A stretch of DNA of 64,000 nucleotides, taken from NCBI GenBank assembly GCA_000824785.1, contig CCNB01000017.1, positions 1-64,000 on the forward strand, written 5' to 3'. Positions 46,626 to 56,700 of the stretch are shown here, piece by piece. The position numbers and the translations under genes are program-made. This DNA is from Mesorhizobium plurifarium (lineage in GTDB: Bacteria > Pseudomonadota > Alphaproteobacteria > Rhizobiales > Rhizobiaceae). Numbering within the stretch: the stretch's first letter is position 1; each line of letters starts with the position of its first letter. A model generated the notes under the pieces. That model made no database searches and was not told the DNA's origin. It worked only from the letters and a program-made list of their open reading frames with translations.

Positions 46626-47393
46626 ATGTTTCTTTCGCCACGCCATGCCGAAATCATCCAGATGGCGAAGGACCATGGCCGGGTTCTGGTCGAGGATCTG
46701 GCGACGCATTTCAATGTGACTCCGCAGACCATCCGCAAGGACCTCAACGATCTGTGCGACCAGCGCCTGCTAACCCGCATTCATGGCGGCGCACTGTTCC
46801 CGTCCGGCATCGAGAACATGGAATACGAGGCGCGCCGTAAGATCGCGGCCGACGAAAAGGAGGCGATCGGCAGCGCGGCGGCGCGGCTAATCCCGGACAA
46901 TGCCTCGCTGTTCATCAACATCGGCACCACCACCGAGGCTGTCAGCAAGGCGCTGCTCGACCATAGCGGACTTATGGTCATCACCAATAACATCAATGTT
47001 GCCAATAGGATGCGCATATATCCTACGATCGAGGTGGTGATCGCGGGCGGTGTGGTGCGCGGCTCCGACGGCGGCGTTGTCGGCGAAGCGGCCGTCGATT
47101 TCATTCGCCAGTTCAAAGTCGATTACGCGGTCATCGGTGCCTCGGCGATCGATCATGACGGCGCGCTGCTCGATTTCGATTTTCGGGAAGTGAAGGTGGC
47201 GCAGGCCATCATCGCCAACGCGCGTCATGTCATCCTGGTCTCCGACCGAACCAAATTCGAGCGAACGGCGCCGGTTCGGATCGGCCACCTTTCGCAGGTG
47301 AACACCTTCATCACCGATCGTTGCGACATCCCATCGATCCGCCGGATCTGCGAGGAGACCGAGGTCCGGCTGATCGAGACGGCGCTCGAATAA
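46626..47393 (+). CDS. glpR: DeoR-family regulator of glycerol genes
   Basis: 255 residues with a GGAGG site. The helix-turn-helix (VEDLATHFNVTPQTIRKDLNDL, about 22-43) and the sugar-phosphate sensing domain with NIGTTTEAVSKALL are those of GlpR. It is expected to repress the operon until glycerol 3-phosphate binds. It precedes glpD in the same direction, 127 bases apart. Confidence 0.92.
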   Translation: MFLSPRHAEIIQMAKDHGRVLVEDLATHFNVTPQTIRKDLNDLCDQRLLTRIHGGALFPSGIENMEYEARRKIAADEKEAIGSAAARLIPDNASLFINIGTTTEAVSKALLDHSGLMVITNNINVANRMRIYPTIEVVIAGGVVRGSDGGVVGEAAVDFIRQFKVDYAVIGASAIDHDGALLDFDFREVKVAQAIIANARHVILVSDRTKFERTAPVRIGHLSQVNTFITDRCDIPSIRRICEETEVRLIETALE

Positions 47394-47457: not shown

Positions 47458-47520
47458 ATAATCCCGTCACGGTTTCGTAAAACACAAAAATGGTGCAATG
47501 CGAAATCGTTGGAGGACCCT

Positions 47521-49047
47521 TTGGACGCATCCCCGATCCATGACATTTTCGTCATCGGCGGCGGCATCAATGGCTGCGGCATCGCCCGCGACGCCGTTGG
47601 CCGCGGATTTTCAGTTTACCTCGCCGAGATGAACGATCTGGCGAGCGGGACCTCCTCCGGCTCGACCAAGCTCATCCATGGCGGCCTTCGCTATCTCGAA
47701 TTCTACGAGTTCCGGCTGGTGCGCGAAGCGCTGATGGAACGCGAGGTCCTGTGGAAGAACGCGCCGCACATCATCTGGCCGATGCGCTTCGTTCTGCCTT
47801 ACGCCAAGGGCCTGAGGCCCGCCTGGCTGATCCGGCTCGGGCTGTTCCTTTATGATCATATCGGCGGGCGCAAGCTCTTGCCGGCGACGAAGACGCTGGA
47901 TATGGCGAGCGATCCGGCCGGCAAGCCGCTGAAGCCGTTGTTCCGCAAGGCGTTCGAATATTCGGACGGCTGGGTCAATGACGCGCGCCTGGTGGCGCTG
48001 AATGCGCGTGACGCCGCCGACCGGGGCGCCGTCATCCGCACCCGCACCAAGGTCGTCAGCGCGCGGCGCGACGGTTCGACCTGGACCATCAAGGTGCAGA
48101 ACGTGCTTACCGGCGAAACCGAGGAGGTTCGCGCGCGGCTTCTCGTCAACGCCGCCGGCCCATGGGTCGATCACGTGCTTTCGGCCGCCGTCGGCCAGAA
48201 CGAGGTCCACAATGTCCGTCTCGTGCAAGGCAGCCACATCGTCGTCGCCAAGAAGTTCGACGATCCGCGCGCCTATTTCTTCCAGAACAAGGATGGCCGC
48301 ATCATCTTCGCCATTCCCTACGAGGAAGAATTCACGCTGATCGGTACCACCGACCGCGACTATCCTGGCGATCCGCATGACGTGAAGATCTCCGATGCCG
48401 AGATCGACTATCTGTGCGCCGCGGCGAGCGAATATTTCGCGGTCGCCGTGAGGCGCTCCGACATCGTTTGGACCTATTCGGCGGTGCGCCCGCTTTATGA
48501 CGACGGCGCGTCGAAGGCCCAGGAAGCGACGCGCGACTATGTGCTCAAGGCCGATGGCGGGGAGGGCGTTGCTCCGCTCGTCAACGCCTTCGGCGGCAAG
48601 ATCACGACCTTCCGCCGGCTGGCGGAATCGATGCTGGAGAAGATCGAAGGGTTTCTCGGCAAGCGCGGCAAGCCGTGGACGCACGATGCGCCGCTGCCCG
48701 GCGGCGATTTCCCCGCGACCGGTTTCGATGCCCAGGTCGCCAGGCTGAAGAGCGCCTATCCGTTTCTCGACCAGCGGCTGGCGCGCCGGTTGACCCGGCT
48801 TTACGGCACGCGCGCGCAAAAGCTGCTCGGGCTCGCCAAGTCGAATGCCGATCTCGGCCGCAATTTCGGCGCTGACCTTTTCGAGGCCGAGGTGCGCTAC
48901 CTGGTCGACAACGAATGGGCGGTCACCGCCGAGGACGTGCTGTGGCGCCGCACCAAGCGTGGCCTGCATTTCAGCCGCGAGCAGGCGGCGGCACTGGAAG
49001 AATTCATGCGCGGACTGAGCAACCGTCACGTCGCGGCAGCCGAATGA
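47521..49047 (+). CDS. glpD: Glycerol 3-phosphate dehydrogenase (FAD, membrane-associated)
   Basis: 508 residues from a TTG five bases after a perfect GGAGG; a TTG 12 bases earlier lies inside that site and is rejected. FAD-binding GGGINGCGIARDAVGRG is at about residues 13-29. SGSTKLIHGGLRYLEFYEF and NAAGPWVDHVLS are GlpD signatures. It oxidises glycerol 3-phosphate to dihydroxyacetone phosphate, passing electrons to quinone. First gene of the uptake operon. Confidence 0.95.
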   Translation: MDASPIHDIFVIGGGINGCGIARDAVGRGFSVYLAEMNDLASGTSSGSTKLIHGGLRYLEFYEFRLVREALMEREVLWKNAPHIIWPMRFVLPYAKGLRPAWLIRLGLFLYDHIGGRKLLPATKTLDMASDPAGKPLKPLFRKAFEYSDGWVNDARLVALNARDAADRGAVIRTRTKVVSARRDGSTWTIKVQNVLTGETEEVRARLLVNAAGPWVDHVLSAAVGQNEVHNVRLVQGSHIVVAKKFDDPRAYFFQNKDGRIIFAIPYEEEFTLIGTTDRDYPGDPHDVKISDAEIDYLCAAASEYFAVAVRRSDIVWTYSAVRPLYDDGASKAQEATRDYVLKADGGEGVAPLVNAFGGKITTFRRLAESMLEKIEGFLGKRGKPWTHDAPLPGGDFPATGFDAQVARLKSAYPFLDQRLARRLTRLYGTRAQKLLGLAKSNADLGRNFGADLFEAEVRYLVDNEWAVTAEDVLWRRTKRGLHFSREQAAALEEFMRGLSNRHVAAAE

Positions 49048-49086: not shown

Positions 49087-50166
49087 ATGCTGGAACTGAG
49101 GAACGTGACGAAGACGGTGGGCGCGCAGGAGCATATCCGCGACGTGTCGCTGACGCTTCAGCACGGCTCGCTGAACGTGCTCCTCGGGCCGACACTCTCC
49201 GGCAAGACCAGCCTGATGCGGCTGATGGCGGGCCTCGACGCGCCGACGTCCGGCTCGGTCTGGTTCGATGGCAAGGACGTCACCGGACAGAAGGTGCAGA
49301 AGCGCAACGTCGCCATGGTGTACCAGCAGTTCATCAATTACCCGGCGATGACCGTCTACGAGAACATCGCTTCGCCGCTCCGGGTCGCCGGCGCCGAGCA
49401 GGCCAAGATCGACAAGGAAGTGCGCAACGCGGCGGCGCTTTTGAAGCTGACGCCTTATCTCGACCGCACGCCGCTCAACCTGTCCGGAGGACAGCAGCAG
49501 CGCACCGCGCTCGCCCGCGCAATCGTCAAGAATGCCAGCCTGGTGCTGCTCGACGAGCCTTTGGCCAATCTCGACTACAAGCTGCGCGAAGAATTGCGCG
49601 CCGAATTGCCGAAGATCTTCGCCGCCGCCGGCACCATCTTCGTCTACGCCACCACCGAGCCGCACGAAGCGCTGTTGCTCGGCGGCAATACGGCGACGCT
49701 CTCGGAAGGCCGCGTCACGCAATTCGGTCCGACCGTCGACGTGTTCCGCAAGCCTGTCGACCTGGTGACGGCACGGACCTTCGCCGATCCGCCGCTCAAC
49801 ACCATCGTGCTCTCCAAGAAGGACGCGGACTTCCTGCTCGAAGGCGGTGTCAAGCTGCCGGTGCCGCCGGAGCTCGCCGGCATTGCCGACGCCAGTTACA
49901 CGATCGGATTCCAGCCGCATCATCTGTCGCTGGAGCGGCCGAACGCCAGCGCCGTGCCGGTGCGGGCCAAGGTCACCATCACCGAGATCACCGGCTCGGA
50001 GAGCTTCGTCCATCTCGATTTCGCCGATGCGCGCTGGGTCATGCTTGCGCATGGCATTCTCGATTTCGAGACGGACGACGAGGTCGAGGTGTTCATCGAC
50101 CCGCGCCATCTCATGGTTTTCGACCAGAACGGCCGCGCCGTGACGGCGTCGAAGCTCGCGGCCTAA
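49087..50166 (+). CDS. glpS: Glycerol ABC transporter ATPase GlpS
   Basis: 359 residues; ATG after GGGAGGAGGC. Walker A GPTLSGKT (34-41), signature LSGGQQQR (132-139), and Walker B with VLLDEP are intact. The switch region reads ATTEP, with Thr190 where His is expected. A C-terminal TOBE-like regulatory domain (about 240-359) follows. With GlpT it forms the ATPase pair of the importer. GlpS supplies the good signature and GlpT the good switch His, so only one composite ATP site looks fully consensus. Confidence 0.92.
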   Translation: MLELRNVTKTVGAQEHIRDVSLTLQHGSLNVLLGPTLSGKTSLMRLMAGLDAPTSGSVWFDGKDVTGQKVQKRNVAMVYQQFINYPAMTVYENIASPLRVAGAEQAKIDKEVRNAAALLKLTPYLDRTPLNLSGGQQQRTALARAIVKNASLVLLDEPLANLDYKLREELRAELPKIFAAAGTIFVYATTEPHEALLLGGNTATLSEGRVTQFGPTVDVFRKPVDLVTARTFADPPLNTIVLSKKDADFLLEGGVKLPVPPELAGIADASYTIGFQPHHLSLERPNASAVPVRAKVTITEITGSESFVHLDFADARWVMLAHGILDFETDDEVEVFIDPRHLMVFDQNGRAVTASKLAA

Positions 50167-50176
50167 GGAGCAAGCG

Positions 50177-51244
50177 ATGGCGCGCATCGAGGTCAACCAT
50201 ATCCGCCACTCCTACCTGCCCAACCCGCGGAAGGATTCGGATTTCGCGCTGAAGGAAGTGCATCACACCTTCGAGGATGGCGGCGCCTATGCGCTGCTCG
50301 GGCCCTCGGGCTGCGGCAAGACCACCTTGCTCAACATCATTTCGGGCCTGCTGCATCCCTCGCATGGCCGGTTGCTGTTCAACGGCCGGGACGTGACCAA
50401 TCTGTCGACGCAGGAGCGCAACATCGCGCAGGTGTTCCAGTTCCCGGTCATCTACGACACCATGACCGTCTACGACAATCTGGCCTTCCCGCTGCGCAAC
50501 CGCCGCGTGCCCGAAGCCGATGTCGATCGCAAGGTGCGCGAGACGCTCGACATGATCGATCTCGCTTCGCTGGCGAAGAAGAAGGCGCGCGGGCTCACCG
50601 CCGACCAGAAGCAGAAGATCTCGCTTGGGCGCGGTCTGGTGCGCTCCGACGTCAACGCCATCCTGTTCGACGAGCCGCTGACGGTGATCGACCCGCATAT
50701 GAAATGGGTGCTGCGCTCGCAGTTGAAGCAACTGCACCGCCGCTTCGGCTACACCATGGTCTATGTCACGCACGACCAGACCGAAGCGCTGACTTTCGCC
50801 GACCGCGTCGTGGTCATGTATGACGGCGAGATCGTCCAGATCGGCACGCCGGCCGAGCTCTTCGAGCGGCCGCGCCATACCTTCGTCGGCTATTTCATCG
50901 GCTCGCCGGGCATGAACGTGCTACCGGTGTCGCTCGATGGCAGGACGGCGACGCTCGGCGCGCAACGCATCGAGCTTCCGGGCGTGCCCAAAGCCGAGGG
51001 CGGCGCCGTCGAGCTCGGCATCCGTCCCGAATATGTGCGGCTCGGCCGTGAAGGCATGGCGGTGCGGGTCAGCAAGGTCGAGGATGTCGGCCGCCACAAG
51101 GTCGTGCGCGCCAATCTGGAGGGCAGGGAAATTGCCGCGGTGATCGGCGAGGACGACGAAGTGCCGGCCGATCCGAAGGTCCGCTTCGATCCTGCCGGCA
51201 TCAACATCTATGCCGATTCCTGGCGCGTCGAGATGGGGGCGTAG
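50177..51244 (+). CDS. glpT: Glycerol ABC transporter ATPase GlpT
   Basis: 355 residues. Walker A GPSGCGKT (42-49), Walker B ILFDEP and the switch His199 (YVTHDQTEA) are intact, but the signature is LTADQ (140-144) in place of LSGGQ. A C-terminal TOBE domain follows. The name follows the Rhizobium leguminosarum glpSTPQUV operon and is unrelated to the E. coli glycerol-phosphate antiporter of the same name. The gene ends directly at the glpP start. Confidence 0.92.
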   Translation: MARIEVNHIRHSYLPNPRKDSDFALKEVHHTFEDGGAYALLGPSGCGKTTLLNIISGLLHPSHGRLLFNGRDVTNLSTQERNIAQVFQFPVIYDTMTVYDNLAFPLRNRRVPEADVDRKVRETLDMIDLASLAKKKARGLTADQKQKISLGRGLVRSDVNAILFDEPLTVIDPHMKWVLRSQLKQLHRRFGYTMVYVTHDQTEALTFADRVVVMYDGEIVQIGTPAELFERPRHTFVGYFIGSPGMNVLPVSLDGRTATLGAQRIELPGVPKAEGGAVELGIRPEYVRLGREGMAVRVSKVEDVGRHKVVRANLEGREIAAVIGEDDEVPADPKVRFDPAGINIYADSWRVEMGA

Positions 51245-52111
51245 ATGGACAAGACCTGGAACAACAAGGCCTGGTTCCTCGTCCTGCCGGTGCTGGTGCT
51301 GGTGGCGTTCTCGGCCGTCATCCCGCTGATGACCGTCGTCAACTATTCGGTGCAGGACACGTTCGGCAACAACGTCTTCTTCTGGGCCGGCACCGAATGG
51401 TTCGAAGAGCTGCTCGCCTCCGACCGCTTCTGGGAAGCGATGGTGCGCAATCTGATCTTCTCCTTCATCATCCTGGCGATCGAGGTGCCGCTCGGCATCT
51501 TCATCGCGCTCAACATGCCGAAGAAGGGCTGGGGCGTGCCGGTCTGCCTGGTGCTGATGGCGCTGCCGCTGCTCATCCCGTGGAATGTCGTCGGCACGAT
51601 CTGGCAGGTGTTCGGGCGCAACGACATCGGCCTGCTCGGCTATTACGTCAACGCGCTCGGCGTCGACTACAACTATGTCCAGGACCCGTTCGACGCCTGG
51701 GTCACCGTCATCGTCATGGATGTCTGGCACTGGACCAGCCTGGTCGTGCTGCTCTGCTATGCCGGGCTCGTCTCCATTCCTGACGCCTTCTACCAGGCGG
51801 CCAAGATCGATGGCGCGTCGCGCTGGGCGGTCTTCCGCTACATCCAGTTGCCGAAGATGCAGCGCGTGCTTCTGATCGCCGTGCTGTTGCGCTTCATGGA
51901 TAGCTTCATGATCTATACCGAGCCCTTCGTCGTCACCGGCGGTGGCCCCGGCAATTCGACGACCTTCCTGTCGATCGACCTCGTCAAGACGGCGCTCGGC
52001 CAATTCGATCTCGGTCCGGCGGCGGCCATGTCGCTGGTCTACTTCCTGATCATCCTGTTGTTGTCGTGGGTATTCTACACCGTGATGACCAACTACGACG
52101 CGGAGCGCTGA
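51245..52111 (+). CDS. glpP: Glycerol ABC transporter permease GlpP
   Basis: 288 residues, six membrane helices. The EAA-type coupling loop is FYQAAKIDGASRWAVFRYIQLP (about residues 181-202). It starts on the base after the glpT stop. Forms the transmembrane channel with GlpQ. Confidence 0.92.
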   Translation: MDKTWNNKAWFLVLPVLVLVAFSAVIPLMTVVNYSVQDTFGNNVFFWAGTEWFEELLASDRFWEAMVRNLIFSFIILAIEVPLGIFIALNMPKKGWGVPVCLVLMALPLLIPWNVVGTIWQVFGRNDIGLLGYYVNALGVDYNYVQDPFDAWVTVIVMDVWHWTSLVVLLCYAGLVSIPDAFYQAAKIDGASRWAVFRYIQLPKMQRVLLIAVLLRFMDSFMIYTEPFVVTGGGPGNSTTFLSIDLVKTALGQFDLGPAAAMSLVYFLIILLLSWVFYTVMTNYDAER

Positions 52112-52112
52112 G

Positions 52113-53021
52113 ATGGTGGGCGCCAACGAGACGACGCGCGTGAGCGAAACGACGGTCACCGAGGTGGGCAGCACGCTGTCGCAGGACGAGGTGGCCAAGC
52201 TGATGCGCCGCCGCGGCGAGGAATCGCGCTGGTGGTGGATCGTGCCGACGCTCTATATCGTCGTGCTGCTCCTGCCGATCTACTGGCTCATCAATATGAG
52301 CTTCAAGACCAATGCGGAGATCGTGTCGTCGATGACGCTGTTCCCGCACAACCCGACATTGGCGAACTACCGCACCATCTTCACAGATGCCTCCTGGTAC
52401 TCGGGCTACATCAACTCGATCACCTATGTGGTGATGAACATGGTGATCTCGGTCGCCGTGGCGCTGCCGGCGGCCTACGCCTTCTCGCGCTACCGCTTCC
52501 TCGGCGACAAGCATTTGTTCTTCTGGCTGCTCACCAACCGCATGGCGCCGCCGGCGGTGTTCGCGCTGCCGTTCTTCCAGCTCTATTCGGCCTTCGGTCT
52601 CATCGACACCCATATCGCCGTGGCGCTGGCGCATTGCCTGTTCAACGTGCCGCTGGCGGTGTGGATCCTCGAAGGCTTCATGTCCGGCGTGCCGAAGGAG
52701 ATCGACGAGACCGCCTATATCGACGGCTATTCGTTCCCGCGCTTCTTCGTGAAGATATTCATGCCGCTGATCGCGAGCGGCATCGGCGTCGCCTGCTTCT
52801 TCTGCTTCATGTTCTCCTGGGTGGAGCTCCTGATCGCGCGCACGCTGACCACGACCGACGCCAAGCCGATCGCCGCCACCATGACCCGTACTGTCTCTGC
52901 CGCCGGCATGGACTGGGGCCTGCTCGCCGCCGCCGGCGTGCTGACGCTGATCCCCGGCGCCTTGGTCATCTGGTTCGTGCGCAATTACATCGCCAAGGGC
53001 TTCGCCCTGGGGAGGGTCTGA
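52113..53021 (+). CDS. glpQ: Glycerol ABC transporter permease GlpQ
   Basis: 302 residues, six membrane helices after a hydrophilic N-terminal tail of about 40 residues. The coupling loop is VPKEIDETAYIDGYSFPRFF. It begins one base after the glpP stop. Partner of GlpP. Confidence 0.92.
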   Translation: MVGANETTRVSETTVTEVGSTLSQDEVAKLMRRRGEESRWWWIVPTLYIVVLLLPIYWLINMSFKTNAEIVSSMTLFPHNPTLANYRTIFTDASWYSGYINSITYVVMNMVISVAVALPAAYAFSRYRFLGDKHLFFWLLTNRMAPPAVFALPFFQLYSAFGLIDTHIAVALAHCLFNVPLAVWILEGFMSGVPKEIDETAYIDGYSFPRFFVKIFMPLIASGIGVACFFCFMFSWVELLIARTLTTTDAKPIAATMTRTVSAAGMDWGLLAAAGVLTLIPGALVIWFVRNYIAKGFALGRV

Positions 53022-53023
53022 CC

Positions 53024-53311
53024 ATGAACCTCGACTTTTCGTGGATGGCGTGGACCTGGCCGACGGCGGCCTTCTTCATCGTCATTGCGCTGATGCTCTG
53101 CGGCATGGGCGTCTGGGAATATGTCTCGCCCGGCGGCAATCCGCGCGTCGGCGTGCTGCGCTTCGAGACGACGCGCGGCGACCGCCTTTTCCTTTCGCTG
53201 CTCGGCAGCGCCTTCATCCATCTCGCTTGGCTGGGTCTGATAGGACCCAACCTGTGGTGGGCTCTCGCTCTCTCCGTGGTCTACGCCATTGGCGTGTTCC
53301 GATACGTATAG
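53024..53311 (+). CDS. glpU: Small membrane protein GlpU (DUF2160)
   Basis: 95 residues with three likely membrane helices (about 12-30, 56-74, 77-93). The YVSPGGNPRVGVLRFETTRGDR loop is typical of DUF2160. It is conserved in rhizobial glycerol operons between the permease and the binding protein genes, but its role is unknown. Translation starts from an ATG just after the glpQ stop with GGGAGGG. Confidence 0.88.
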   Translation: MNLDFSWMAWTWPTAAFFIVIALMLCGMGVWEYVSPGGNPRVGVLRFETTRGDRLFLSLLGSAFIHLAWLGLIGPNLWWALALSVVYAIGVFRYV

Positions 53312-53388: not shown

Positions 53389-55116
53389 ATGCGACGGCAA
53401 TTTCTAACATCCACGACCGCCCTTGTCCTATTGCTCGGGGCGGGCAATGCCTATGCCGGTATGGACGAGGCAAAAGCCTTTCTCGACAAGGAGATAGGCG
53501 ACCTTTCGACGCTTTCACGCGCCGATCAGGAAAAGGAAATGCAGTGGTTCATCGATGCCGCGAAGCCGTTCGCCGGCATGGAGATCAAGGTCGTTTCGGA
53601 AACCATCGCCACCCATTCCTATGAATCGCAAGTGCTGGCGCCGGCCTTCTCCGCGATCACCGGCATCAAGCTGACGCACGACACGATCCAGGAAGGCGAT
53701 GTCGTCGAGAAGATCCAGACGCAGATGCAGACGGGACAGAACCTCTATGACGGCTGGGTCAACGACTCCGACCTCATCGGCACGCACTGGCGCTACCAGC
53801 AGGTGCGCAACCTGACCGACTGGATGGCGGGCGACGGCAAGGACGTCACCAATCCGAACCTCGACCTGAAGGACTTCATCGGCACGTCGTTCACCACGGC
53901 GCCCGACAAGAAGCTCTACCAGCTTCCCGACCAGCAGTTCGCGAACCTCTACTGGTTCCGCTACGACTGGTTCAACGACGAGAAGAACAAGGCCGACTTC
54001 AAGGCCAAATACGGCTACGACCTCGGCGTTCCGGTCAACTGGTCGGCCTATGAGGACATCGCCGAGTTCTTCACCGGCCGCGAGATCGACGGCAAGAAGG
54101 TCTATGGCCACATGGACTACGGCAAGAAGGACCCGTCGCTCGGCTGGCGGTTCACCGATGCGTGGCTCTCCATGGCCGGCAATGGCGACAAGGGCATTCC
54201 GAATGGCCTGCCGGTCGACGAGTGGGGCATCAAGGTCGATGAGAATTCGCGTCCTGTCGGTTCCTGCACCGCGCGCGGCGGCGACACCAACGGCCCGGCG
54301 GCGGTCTACTCGATCCAGAAATATCTCGACTGGCTGAAGGCCTACGCTCCCGCCGAAGCGCAGGGCATGACCTTCTCCGAATCCGGCCCGGTTCCGGCGC
54401 AGGGCGCGGTTGCCCAGCAGATATTCTGGTACACCGCCTTCACCGCTTCGATGGTCGACGCCGGCGCCAAGGCCGTGATGAACGACGACGGCACGCCGAA
54501 ATGGCGCATGGCCCCATCGCCGCACGGCGTCTACTGGAAGGACGGCATGAAGCTCGGCTACCAGGACGTGGGTTCCTGGACGCTGATGAAGTCGACGCCG
54601 ACCGACCGCGCCAAGGCCGCCTGGCTCTATGCGCAGTTCGTCACCTCGAAGACCGTCGACGTGAAGAAGAGCCATGTCGGCCTGACCTTCATCCGCGAGA
54701 GCACGATCCACGACAAGAGCTTTACCGAGCGCGCGCCGAAGCTCGGCGGTCTGATCGAGTTCTACCGCTCGCCGGCCCGCGTGCAGTGGTCGCCGACCGG
54801 GACCAACGTGCCTGACTATCCGAAGCTGGCGCAGCTCTGGTGGCAGGCGATCGGCGATGCTTCGTCGGGCGCCAAGAGCGCGCAGGAAGCAATGGACTCG
54901 CTCTGCGCCGAACAGGAAAAGGTCATGAGCCGCATCGAGAAGTCGGGCGTCCAGGGCGATATCGGCCCGAAGATGGCCGAAGAGCATGACCTCGCCTACT
55001 GGAACGCCGACGCGGTCAAGAAAGGCAATCTCGCGCCTCAGCTGAAGATCGAGAACGAGAAGGAAAAGCCGATCACCGTCAACTACGACGAGCTGGTGAA
55101 GAGCTGGCAGAAGTAA
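53389..55116 (+). CDS. glpV: Glycerol ABC transporter substrate-binding protein GlpV
   Basis: 575 residues with a GGAGGAGA site. Sec signal peptide (about 1-23, ending GNAYAG). An unusually long MalE-like extracellular solute-binding protein (family 1), which is characteristic of GlpV. It captures glycerol in the periplasm for GlpPQ. A hairpin follows its stop codon and may favour its expression over glpK. Confidence 0.93.
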   Translation: MRRQFLTSTTALVLLLGAGNAYAGMDEAKAFLDKEIGDLSTLSRADQEKEMQWFIDAAKPFAGMEIKVVSETIATHSYESQVLAPAFSAITGIKLTHDTIQEGDVVEKIQTQMQTGQNLYDGWVNDSDLIGTHWRYQQVRNLTDWMAGDGKDVTNPNLDLKDFIGTSFTTAPDKKLYQLPDQQFANLYWFRYDWFNDEKNKADFKAKYGYDLGVPVNWSAYEDIAEFFTGREIDGKKVYGHMDYGKKDPSLGWRFTDAWLSMAGNGDKGIPNGLPVDEWGIKVDENSRPVGSCTARGGDTNGPAAVYSIQKYLDWLKAYAPAEAQGMTFSESGPVPAQGAVAQQIFWYTAFTASMVDAGAKAVMNDDGTPKWRMAPSPHGVYWKDGMKLGYQDVGSWTLMKSTPTDRAKAAWLYAQFVTSKTVDVKKSHVGLTFIRESTIHDKSFTERAPKLGGLIEFYRSPARVQWSPTGTNVPDYPKLAQLWWQAIGDASSGAKSAQEAMDSLCAEQEKVMSRIEKSGVQGDIGPKMAEEHDLAYWNADAVKKGNLAPQLKIENEKEKPITVNYDELVKSWQK

Positions 55117-55206: not shown

Positions 55207-56700
55207 ATGAGCGGTTTTGTGCTGGCGATCGACCAGGGAACGACATCGACCCGGGCGATCCTGTTCGACGACAAGATGAAGGTCGCCGGCATCGGCCAGC
55301 AGGAATTTGCCCAGCACTATCCCGCCTCCGGTTGGGTCGAGCACGATCCGGAAGACATCTGGGTGAGCGTCGTCGCGACGGTGAAGGCGGCGCTGAAAGC
55401 GGCCGGCCGCGCGGCATCGGATGTCGCCGCGATCGGCATCACCAACCAGCGCGAGACGGTCGTGGTCTGGGACAGGGCGACCGGCAAGCCGATCCACAAT
55501 GCGATCGTCTGGCAGGATCGCCGCACCGCGCCGCTCTGCCGGAAGTTGAAGAAGCAGGGGCTGGAGGAAAAATTCACGAACAAGACCGGTCTGCTGCTCG
55601 ATCCCTATTTCTCCGGCACCAAGATCGCCTGGATGCTGGACAAAGTGAAGGGTGCGAGGAAGCGCGCCGAGAAGGGTGAATTGCTCGCCGGCACCATCGA
55701 CAGTTTCCTGATCTGGCGGCTGACCGGCGGCCAAGTGCACGCCACCGATGCCACCAACGCCTCGCGCACTTTGGTCTACAACATCGAGAAGAATGTCTGG
55801 GACGACGAGCTGCTCTCGATCCTGAACATACCGGCGGCGATCCTGCCTGAGGTGAAGGATTGCGCCGACGATTTCGGCGTCACGGAAAAGAGCCTCTTCG
55901 GCGCCGAGATGCCAATACTCGGCGTCGCCGGCGACCAGCATGCGGCGACGATCGGCCAGGCCTGCTTCGAGCCGGGCATGATGAAGTCGACCTACGGCAC
56001 CGGCTGCTTTGCGCTGCTCAACACCGGCACGGACCTGGTGCGCTCGAGGAACCGGTTGCTCACCACGATCGCCTACAGGCTGAACGGCAAGACCACCTAT
56101 GCGCTGGAGGGTTCGATCTTCATCGCGGGCGCCGCCGTGCAGTGGCTCCGCGACGGTATCAAGGTGATCGGCAAGGCCGAGCAAAGCGGTGCGCTGGCGG
56201 CGACCGCCGATCCGGTGCAACAAGTCTATCTGGTGCCGGCCTTCGTCGGTCTTGGCGCGCCGCATTGGGACGCCGATGCGCGCGGCGCGATCTTCGGCCT
56301 GACGCGCAATTCAGGTCCGGCTGAGTTTGCACGCGCTGCACTTGAATCGGTCGCCTTCCAGACGCGCGACCTGCTCGATGCGATGCGCAAGGACTGGAAA
56401 GGCGCCTCGGCCAAGACGGTGCTTCGCGTCGACGGCGGCATGGTGGCGTCCGACTGGACCATGCAGCGGCTAGCCGACATTCTCGACGCGCCGGTCGACC
56501 GTCCAACGATCCTGGAGACGACGGCGCTGGGCGCGGCCTGGCTTGCCGGGTCGAAAGCGGGTGTCTGGCCGAAAGCGAAGGAATTCGCCAAGAGCTGGGC
56601 GCTGGAACGGCGCTTCAAGCCGGAGATGGATGCGGCCACACGCGGGGCGAAGCTGGCCGGATGGCGCGATGCGGTGCGCAGGACGCTGAGCGTGCGATAG
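55207..56700 (+). CDS. glpK: Glycerol kinase
   Basis: 497 residues from the ATG with GGAGG at seven bases. [15 protein letters not shown] (ATP phosphate loop), [10 protein letters not shown] and [15 protein letters not shown] are FGGY kinase signatures. It phosphorylates glycerol to glycerol 3-phosphate, trapping it for GlpD. It closes the operon glpD-glpSTPQUV-glpK. Confidence 0.95.

Follow-up and report, generated by a model that had tools for sequence, protein, structure and literature searches.

Asymmetric ATP sites in GlpS/GlpT, the ATPase pair of a predicted glycerol importer from Mesorhizobium plurifarium

Among carbohydrate importers the maltose transporter is the textbook case, and it has two identical ATP sites. 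MalK of E. coli forms a homodimer (PMC7756565), and its two sites are thus identical and consensus. Asymmetry between the two sites is familiar mainly in exporters and is unexpected in the MalK-type family of sugar importers. An operon of Mesorhizobium plurifarium, lying in the 64,000-nucleotide stretch of DNA analysed here (the window), encodes two different MalK-type ATPases, GlpS and GlpT, and raises the question of whether their transporter works with two ATP sites or with one. A sequence-only reading of the locus had proposed that one composite site of the pair is fully consensus and the other doubly degenerate.

The glp operon and its two ATPases

Open reading frames and HMM matches in the window give the operon order glpR-glpD-glpS-T-P-Q-U-V-glpK, all on the forward strand. 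The upstream gene glpR (46626..47393) encodes a DeoR-type repressor that scores below the curated cut-off of the DeoR/GlpR model and is named with the help of its context, and glpD (47509..49047) encodes a glycerol-3-phosphate dehydrogenase whose ORF starts with TTG, its true start being uncertain. The ATPase genes glpS (49087..50166) and glpT (50177..51244) are followed by the permease genes glpP (51245..52111) and glpQ (52113..53021), both BPD_transp_1, and by glpU (53024..53311), which encodes a small membrane protein (DUF2160). The product of glpV (53389..55116) is a putative periplasmic substrate-binding protein of 575 amino acids, named from its operon position and its annotated relatives; neither Pfam nor NCBIfam gives it a match at E 0.001. 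The glycerol kinase gene glpK (55207..56700) closes the operon.

This arrangement recurs in other rhizobia. Genes and order between glpR-glpD and glpK match those of the rhizobial glycerol ABC transporter GlpSTPQUV, which was reportedly described by Ding et al. 2012 (Microbiology 158:1369), and the window system is predicted to transport glycerol by analogy with that relative. The same order from glpR to glpK is found on R. etli CIAT 652 pC, and S. meliloti pSymB is identical through glpV, with no adjacent glpK listed. The accessible text of PMC7912956 gives the same glpSTPQUV layout for R. leguminosarum VF39 and two ATPases with two permeases in a related Cupriavidus operon; it describes the operon and its regulation, and not an asymmetry of GlpS and GlpT. 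A Ralstonia glp set goes up on glycerol (PMC11223650).

Among the loci first fetched, glpS and glpT are adjacent in 138 of 139, the sole exception (L130) being a contig of 3.9 kb. Where longer flanks were available, GlpP lies beside the pair in 153 of 154 loci and GlpQ in 152 of 154. Several loci (L203, L206-L208, L243-L246, L250, L252, L253, L261, L262, L264 and L265) hold GlpS, GlpT, GlpP and GlpQ with no GlpV-like protein found within the roughly 7.4 kb fetched; their binding protein may be encoded elsewhere or have diverged, or the substrate may be another one.

The two ATPases deviate from consensus at different motifs. In translation, GlpS carries Walker A GPTLSGKT (34-41), the signature LSGGQ (132-136), Walker B LVLLDEP with Asp156 and Glu157, and a canonical D-loop, LANLD. 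At the place where MalK-type ATPases carry VTHDQ it reads ATTEP, with Thr190 (codon ACC, 49654..49656, forward strand) at the switch-His position, and its A-loop position is Val11, while the other ATPases read in the same genome have Phe or Tyr there. GlpT has canonical Tyr13 in the A-loop, Walker A GPSGCGKT (42-49), Walker B ILFDEP and THD with His199, and LTADQ (residues 140-144; codons 50594..50608, forward strand) replaces LSGGQ as a degenerate signature. Its D-loop is LTVID, compared with mostly LSNLD or LSALD in the other ATPases of the genome.

Direct translation and structure-based references bear out the central observation of the sequence-only reading, namely LSGGQ with Thr190 in GlpS and His199 with LTADQ in GlpT, and its coordinates and residue numbers are correct, the codon positions having been rechecked. 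The phmmer alignment of GlpS with 1v43 is gap-free at Thr190, and GlpT aligns with SugC 8ja7 gap-free through both the signature and THD. These alignments, together with the conservation described below, exclude a frame or alignment artefact as the source of LTADQ or Thr190.

Both proteins show the architecture of the family. GlpS and GlpT are about 28% identical in local alignment, and each matches ABC_tran (PF00005) followed by TOBE (PF08402) in Pfam, with OB_MalK (PF17912) added in GlpT. AlphaFold models reach a mean pLDDT of 87.5 for GlpS and 87.2 for GlpT, and E. coli MalK (1q12_A) matches them with query TM scores of 0.84 and 0.83, so that both are predicted to adopt the MalK fold; residues 167-170 of the GlpT model, in the D-loop region, fall below a pLDDT of 50. 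With 260.1 and 283.9 bits, the two proteins miss the 432-bit cut-off of the UgpC model (NCBIfam NF008653), and by this profile they would be relatives of UgpC rather than UgpC itself.

In a head-to-tail dimer of nucleotide-binding domains (NBDs), each ATP site combines the A-loop, Walker motifs, Q-loop and H-loop of one subunit with the signature of the other (PMC7756269). This geometry brings the A-loop and H-loop deviations of GlpS and the signature deviation of GlpT together in a single site. In every pair read, the departures from ABC consensus map to this one predicted composite site, and the other, composed of the Walker A, Walker B, Q-loop and His199 of GlpT with the LSGGQ and LANLD of GlpS, is fully consensus in its motifs, as the earlier reading had proposed. 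Usual dimer geometry also assigns the GlpT D-loop to the altered site, and because D-loops lie between both sites, the placement of this deviation is less certain. Calling the altered site doubly degenerate captures two real losses but leaves out the GlpS A-loop and the GlpT LTVID; it also passes over what is kept, namely the Walker A Lys and Thr, the Q-loop Gln and the Walker B Asp-Glu.

Conservation across Pseudomonadota

Conservation was measured on 155 distinct GlpS matches, each with a GlpT partner, from three genome searches with overlapping draws (61, 385 and 398 genomes). These searches covered Pseudomonadota at E-value limits of 1e-85 to 1e-95, which remote relatives with canonical motifs could escape; the runner-up to GlpS in its own genome scores 3e-58. 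A larger set holds 230 unique GlpS and 229 unique GlpT sequences from 266 loci. Part of it came from a scan with YATTEPHE among its patterns, which is biased to the Thr form, so the headline counts rest on the 155 genome-search matches alone. A GlpT query matched in 56 of 299 genomes, and its 30 loci lie inside the larger set. GlpS itself occurs in 41 of 61 relatives and in 45 of 385 genomes.

The asymmetric motif pattern holds without exception in the Pseudomonadota sampled. All 155 GlpS sequences carry LSGGQ, and position 190 is Thr in 143 and Ser in 12, never His. Walker A Lys40 and Thr41, Q-loop Gln80 and Walker B Asp156-Glu157 are each present in 155/155; the D-loop is LANLD (113) or LVNLD (42). 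The A-loop position is non-aromatic in 153 of the 155 (Val 146, other residues 7) and Phe in the remaining 2. The altered site thus has no switch His, no signature Gly-Gly and usually no adenine-stacking aromatic. The partner GlpT sequences keep Tyr13, Lys48 of Walker A, Asp165-Glu166 and His199 in every case, and LTVID is equally constant (155/155).

None of the 155 GlpT sequences has LSGGQ. The second residue of its signature is Thr in 124, Ser in 22, Gly in 5 and Ala in 4, the third is Ala in 144 and Pro in 11, and the fourth is always acidic (Asp 154, Glu 1). This Asp presumably resembles the CFTR change G551D. The fixation that the earlier reading had proposed to check by alignment is therefore confirmed in searches unbiased to the motif, and in the larger set, too, the switch His is missing from every GlpS and LSGGQ from every GlpT. 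The lowest identities to the window proteins among the 155 pairs are 45.9% for GlpS and 52.1% for GlpT. Matches beyond the class of the window carry the same odd residues, which excludes a rhizobial peculiarity.

A minor lineage, 8 of the 155 pairs, has LSPDN as the GlpT signature. In the combinations listed, it is paired with ATSEP in GlpS and with a GlpS Walker A closer to the canonical form, GxTG[SA]G, and the lineage is possibly a less derived stage.

Codon usage helps to characterise the altered site. Across 229 pairs, GlpT residue 143 is encoded by GAC (165), GAT (63) or GAG (1), and all four codons are used at each of residues 142 (Ala), 169 (Thr) and 170 (Val). At GlpS 190 four Thr and five Ser codons occur, and His never does. 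Codons thus change at most of the altered positions without a change of residue, so the altered site looks specialised rather than decaying. The positions that do vary are GlpT 141 and 144 and, in the GlpS Walker A, 37, 38 and 42. GlpT 144, the Gln of LSGGQ, ranks 281 of 355 in conservation and its GlpS counterpart is invariant; one ATP contact seems to have been released here, with the new residues around it held. Since the nucleotide-binding residues of GlpS are invariant, the altered site may still bind Mg-ATP. Together these patterns argue for a site that would still hold nucleotide and depart from the ordinary catalytic cycle.

A second lopsided pair in the same genome

The other ABC ATPases of the same genome served as a control. 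A search listed 45 matches, of which 30 were taken to loci, and the 29 loci besides that of GlpS were read; the 15 matches left aside include GlpT and the first ATPase of a second pair described below. The 29 loci yielded 32 ORFs, and removal of two belonging to the second pair and of one duplicate left 29. All 29 keep the H-loop His, the signature Gly-Gly and the Walker B Asp-Glu, although one of them, L279 (2-1480), is in our judgement not a MalK-type ATPase. Among them are the tandem pairs of the L297 and L298 operons, both canonical, which rules out that all two-ATPase importers of this genome are lopsided.

A second tandem pair of MalK-type ATPases (L296:8880-11030; contig C7 of the same genome, G000, 416.9-419.0 kb) is lopsided as well. 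Its first ATPase has LSVN(I/E) as signature in 27/27 distinct sequences and keeps the His and the Walker B Glu. The second has LSGGE and the His; of its 28 distinct sequences, 26 show Asp in place of the Walker B Glu, and L300 and L301, its most distant relatives, retain Glu. Distinct sequences were counted because L296 and L299 are identical genes of the same genome. Both lesions of this pair are predicted, from its motifs, to meet in one composite site. According to the annotation of relatives, the operon also encodes a substrate-binding protein, two permeases, a Gfo/Idh/MocA oxidoreductase, a sugar phosphate isomerase/epimerase and an SDR. The pair is rarer than GlpST: 22 of 61 relatives carry it and, in a draw of 190 genomes from the class that included its own, 3 do.

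Phylogenetic trees (64 rows without the motif columns in a careful run, 102 rows in a quick one) resolve the four families as four groups, and their deep order is not fixed. GlpS and GlpT as sister families give an AU p of 0.389. For a shared origin of the second pair with GlpST, the AU tests give p 0.396 for T+A2 and 0.404 for S+B2, values too high to reject a joint origin for the signature losses. The catalytic lesions themselves would have taken two different routes, by our claim, through the His in GlpS and through Glu to Asp in the second family. With two such pairs in one genome, the lopsidedness seems not to be a single accident.

Mechanism and comparison with known transporters

GlpS and GlpT probably act as an obligate heterodimer under two permeases, in which the consensus site alone hydrolyses ATP and the altered site binds nucleotide. 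The heterodimer would sit beneath GlpP and GlpQ in GlpSTPQ(U)V. Its pairing is deduced from the adjacency of the genes (138/139) and from the motifs, because a GlpS homodimer would have no His at either site and a GlpT homodimer no LSGGQ at either, so that only the heterodimer offers a complete site. In each cycle, hydrolysis would take place at the consensus site, built from the Walker motifs of GlpT and the LSGGQ of GlpS. The altered site would keep its nucleotide bound without completing hydrolysis, as it has neither a switch His nor a signature that embraces the gamma-phosphate, and might serve as a structural or regulatory hinge. Each glycerol imported would then probably cost about one ATP.

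Both composite sites might instead hydrolyse, the altered one using Thr190 and Glu157 of GlpS with LTAD and LTVID of GlpT, which would make the pair asymmetric in sequence and not in function. The invariance of GlpS Lys40/Thr41, Gln80, Asp156 and Glu157 (155/155) and the conservation of most of the replacements fit this idea, and yeast Pdr5 with His1068Ala is an exception to the need for a switch His (PMC9867378). Replacement residues could mean a different reaction geometry instead of inactivity. As the catalytic Glu of GlpS is kept, the altered site may hydrolyse slowly, and even exporter sites with Glu to Asp still seem to do so (PMC7756269). Yet the accessible text of PMC9867378 reports that MalK H192R and changes at HisP H211 abolish both ATPase activity and transport, and it refers to work in which only one MalK subunit was mutated. 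In the altered site the loss of that His coincides with loss of the signature Gly-Gly and, in most cases, of the aromatic that stacks on adenine, and hydrolysis at both sites is on balance unlikely.

Decay of the altered site into a roleless leftover, with only the consensus site mattering, would account for the variation at GlpT 141 and 144 and at GlpS 37, 38 and 42. It fits poorly with Ala142 in 144/155 and Asp143 in 154/155 GlpT sequences, with LTVID and Thr/Ser190 in all 155, each maintained over varying codons, and with the invariant GlpS Lys40, Thr41, Gln80, Asp156 and Glu157; we consider it improbable. More improbable still is that the two proteins are not partners, one working as a homodimer and the other being regulatory or serving another system. 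The identity of only about 28% and the unsettled sister status (AU p = 0.389) would allow this, but either homodimer would be without any complete site, and the genes stand side by side at 138 of 139 loci together with two different permeases. The heterodimer with a single hydrolysing site remains the preferred reading.

Compared with known systems, GlpST shares its overall fold, an NBD with a TOBE/OB domain, with the MalK/UgpC-type ATPases of the CUT1 group (E. coli MalK, SugC, MsmX). It differs from E. coli MalK in having two ATPases and one consensus site. The exporters TM287/288, TmrAB, TAP and CFTR resemble it in that deviations spread over both NBDs converge on one composite site. Unlike these exporters, GlpST is an importer dependent on a substrate-binding protein, with separate subunits, and GlpS keeps its Walker B Glu and loses the His.

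Degenerate sites are common in exporters: of 29 human ABC proteins that are full-length or heterodimeric, 21 have one. A signature change is universal among these sites, Glu to Asp is the next most frequent change, and in some, such as TAP, the H-loop deviates along with the Glu (PMC7756269). GlpST follows the first feature, since the signature is lost on one NBD only (LSGGQ in 0/155 GlpT and 155/155 GlpS). The Glu change, typical of such sites without being universal, is absent from GlpST (Glu157 in 155/155) and present in the second pair (26/28).

Importers with fused ATPases of the RbsA and NupO kind are labelled CUT2. One degenerate ATP site is recorded for RbsA (sugar) and NupO (nucleoside) in the available part of PMC11466899, which corrects the impression of the earlier reading that one-active-site logic is not stressed for carbohydrate-type importers. 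In these proteins the two NBDs lie in one chain and the second half has lost its Walker A Lys; GlpS and GlpT, in contrast, come from separate genes and retain Lys40 and Lys48 in 155/155 each. For GlpST and for MalK-type importers with separate ATPases, no report of asymmetry was found in an open-licence library, a part of the whole literature. A single degenerate site, already recorded for exporters and for importers with fused ATPases, is thus apparently unreported for the separate-ATPase MalK/CUT1 case. We give an even chance to the wider proposal that CUT1 importers have settled, in at least two systems and through different residues, on a heterodimer with one engine and a conserved, non-hydrolysing second site.

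If the proposed mechanism is true, GlpST-like importers would run on roughly one ATP per substrate, contradicting the maltose-transporter rule that both sites need catalytic integrity. GlpST would be an apparent natural case of a MalK-type importer living with one His-less subunit. With it, the old question of whether a cycle uses one ATP or two becomes approachable without engineered heterodimers, and it allows comparison with exporters of like layout. The canonical two-ATPase importer at L298:5814-10645 (contig C34) adjoins ORFs that resemble, by eye, dihydroxyacetone kinase subunits, and is possibly a triose- or glycerol-like transporter with both sites intact. With its intact sites, the L298 system offers a natural control for GlpST.
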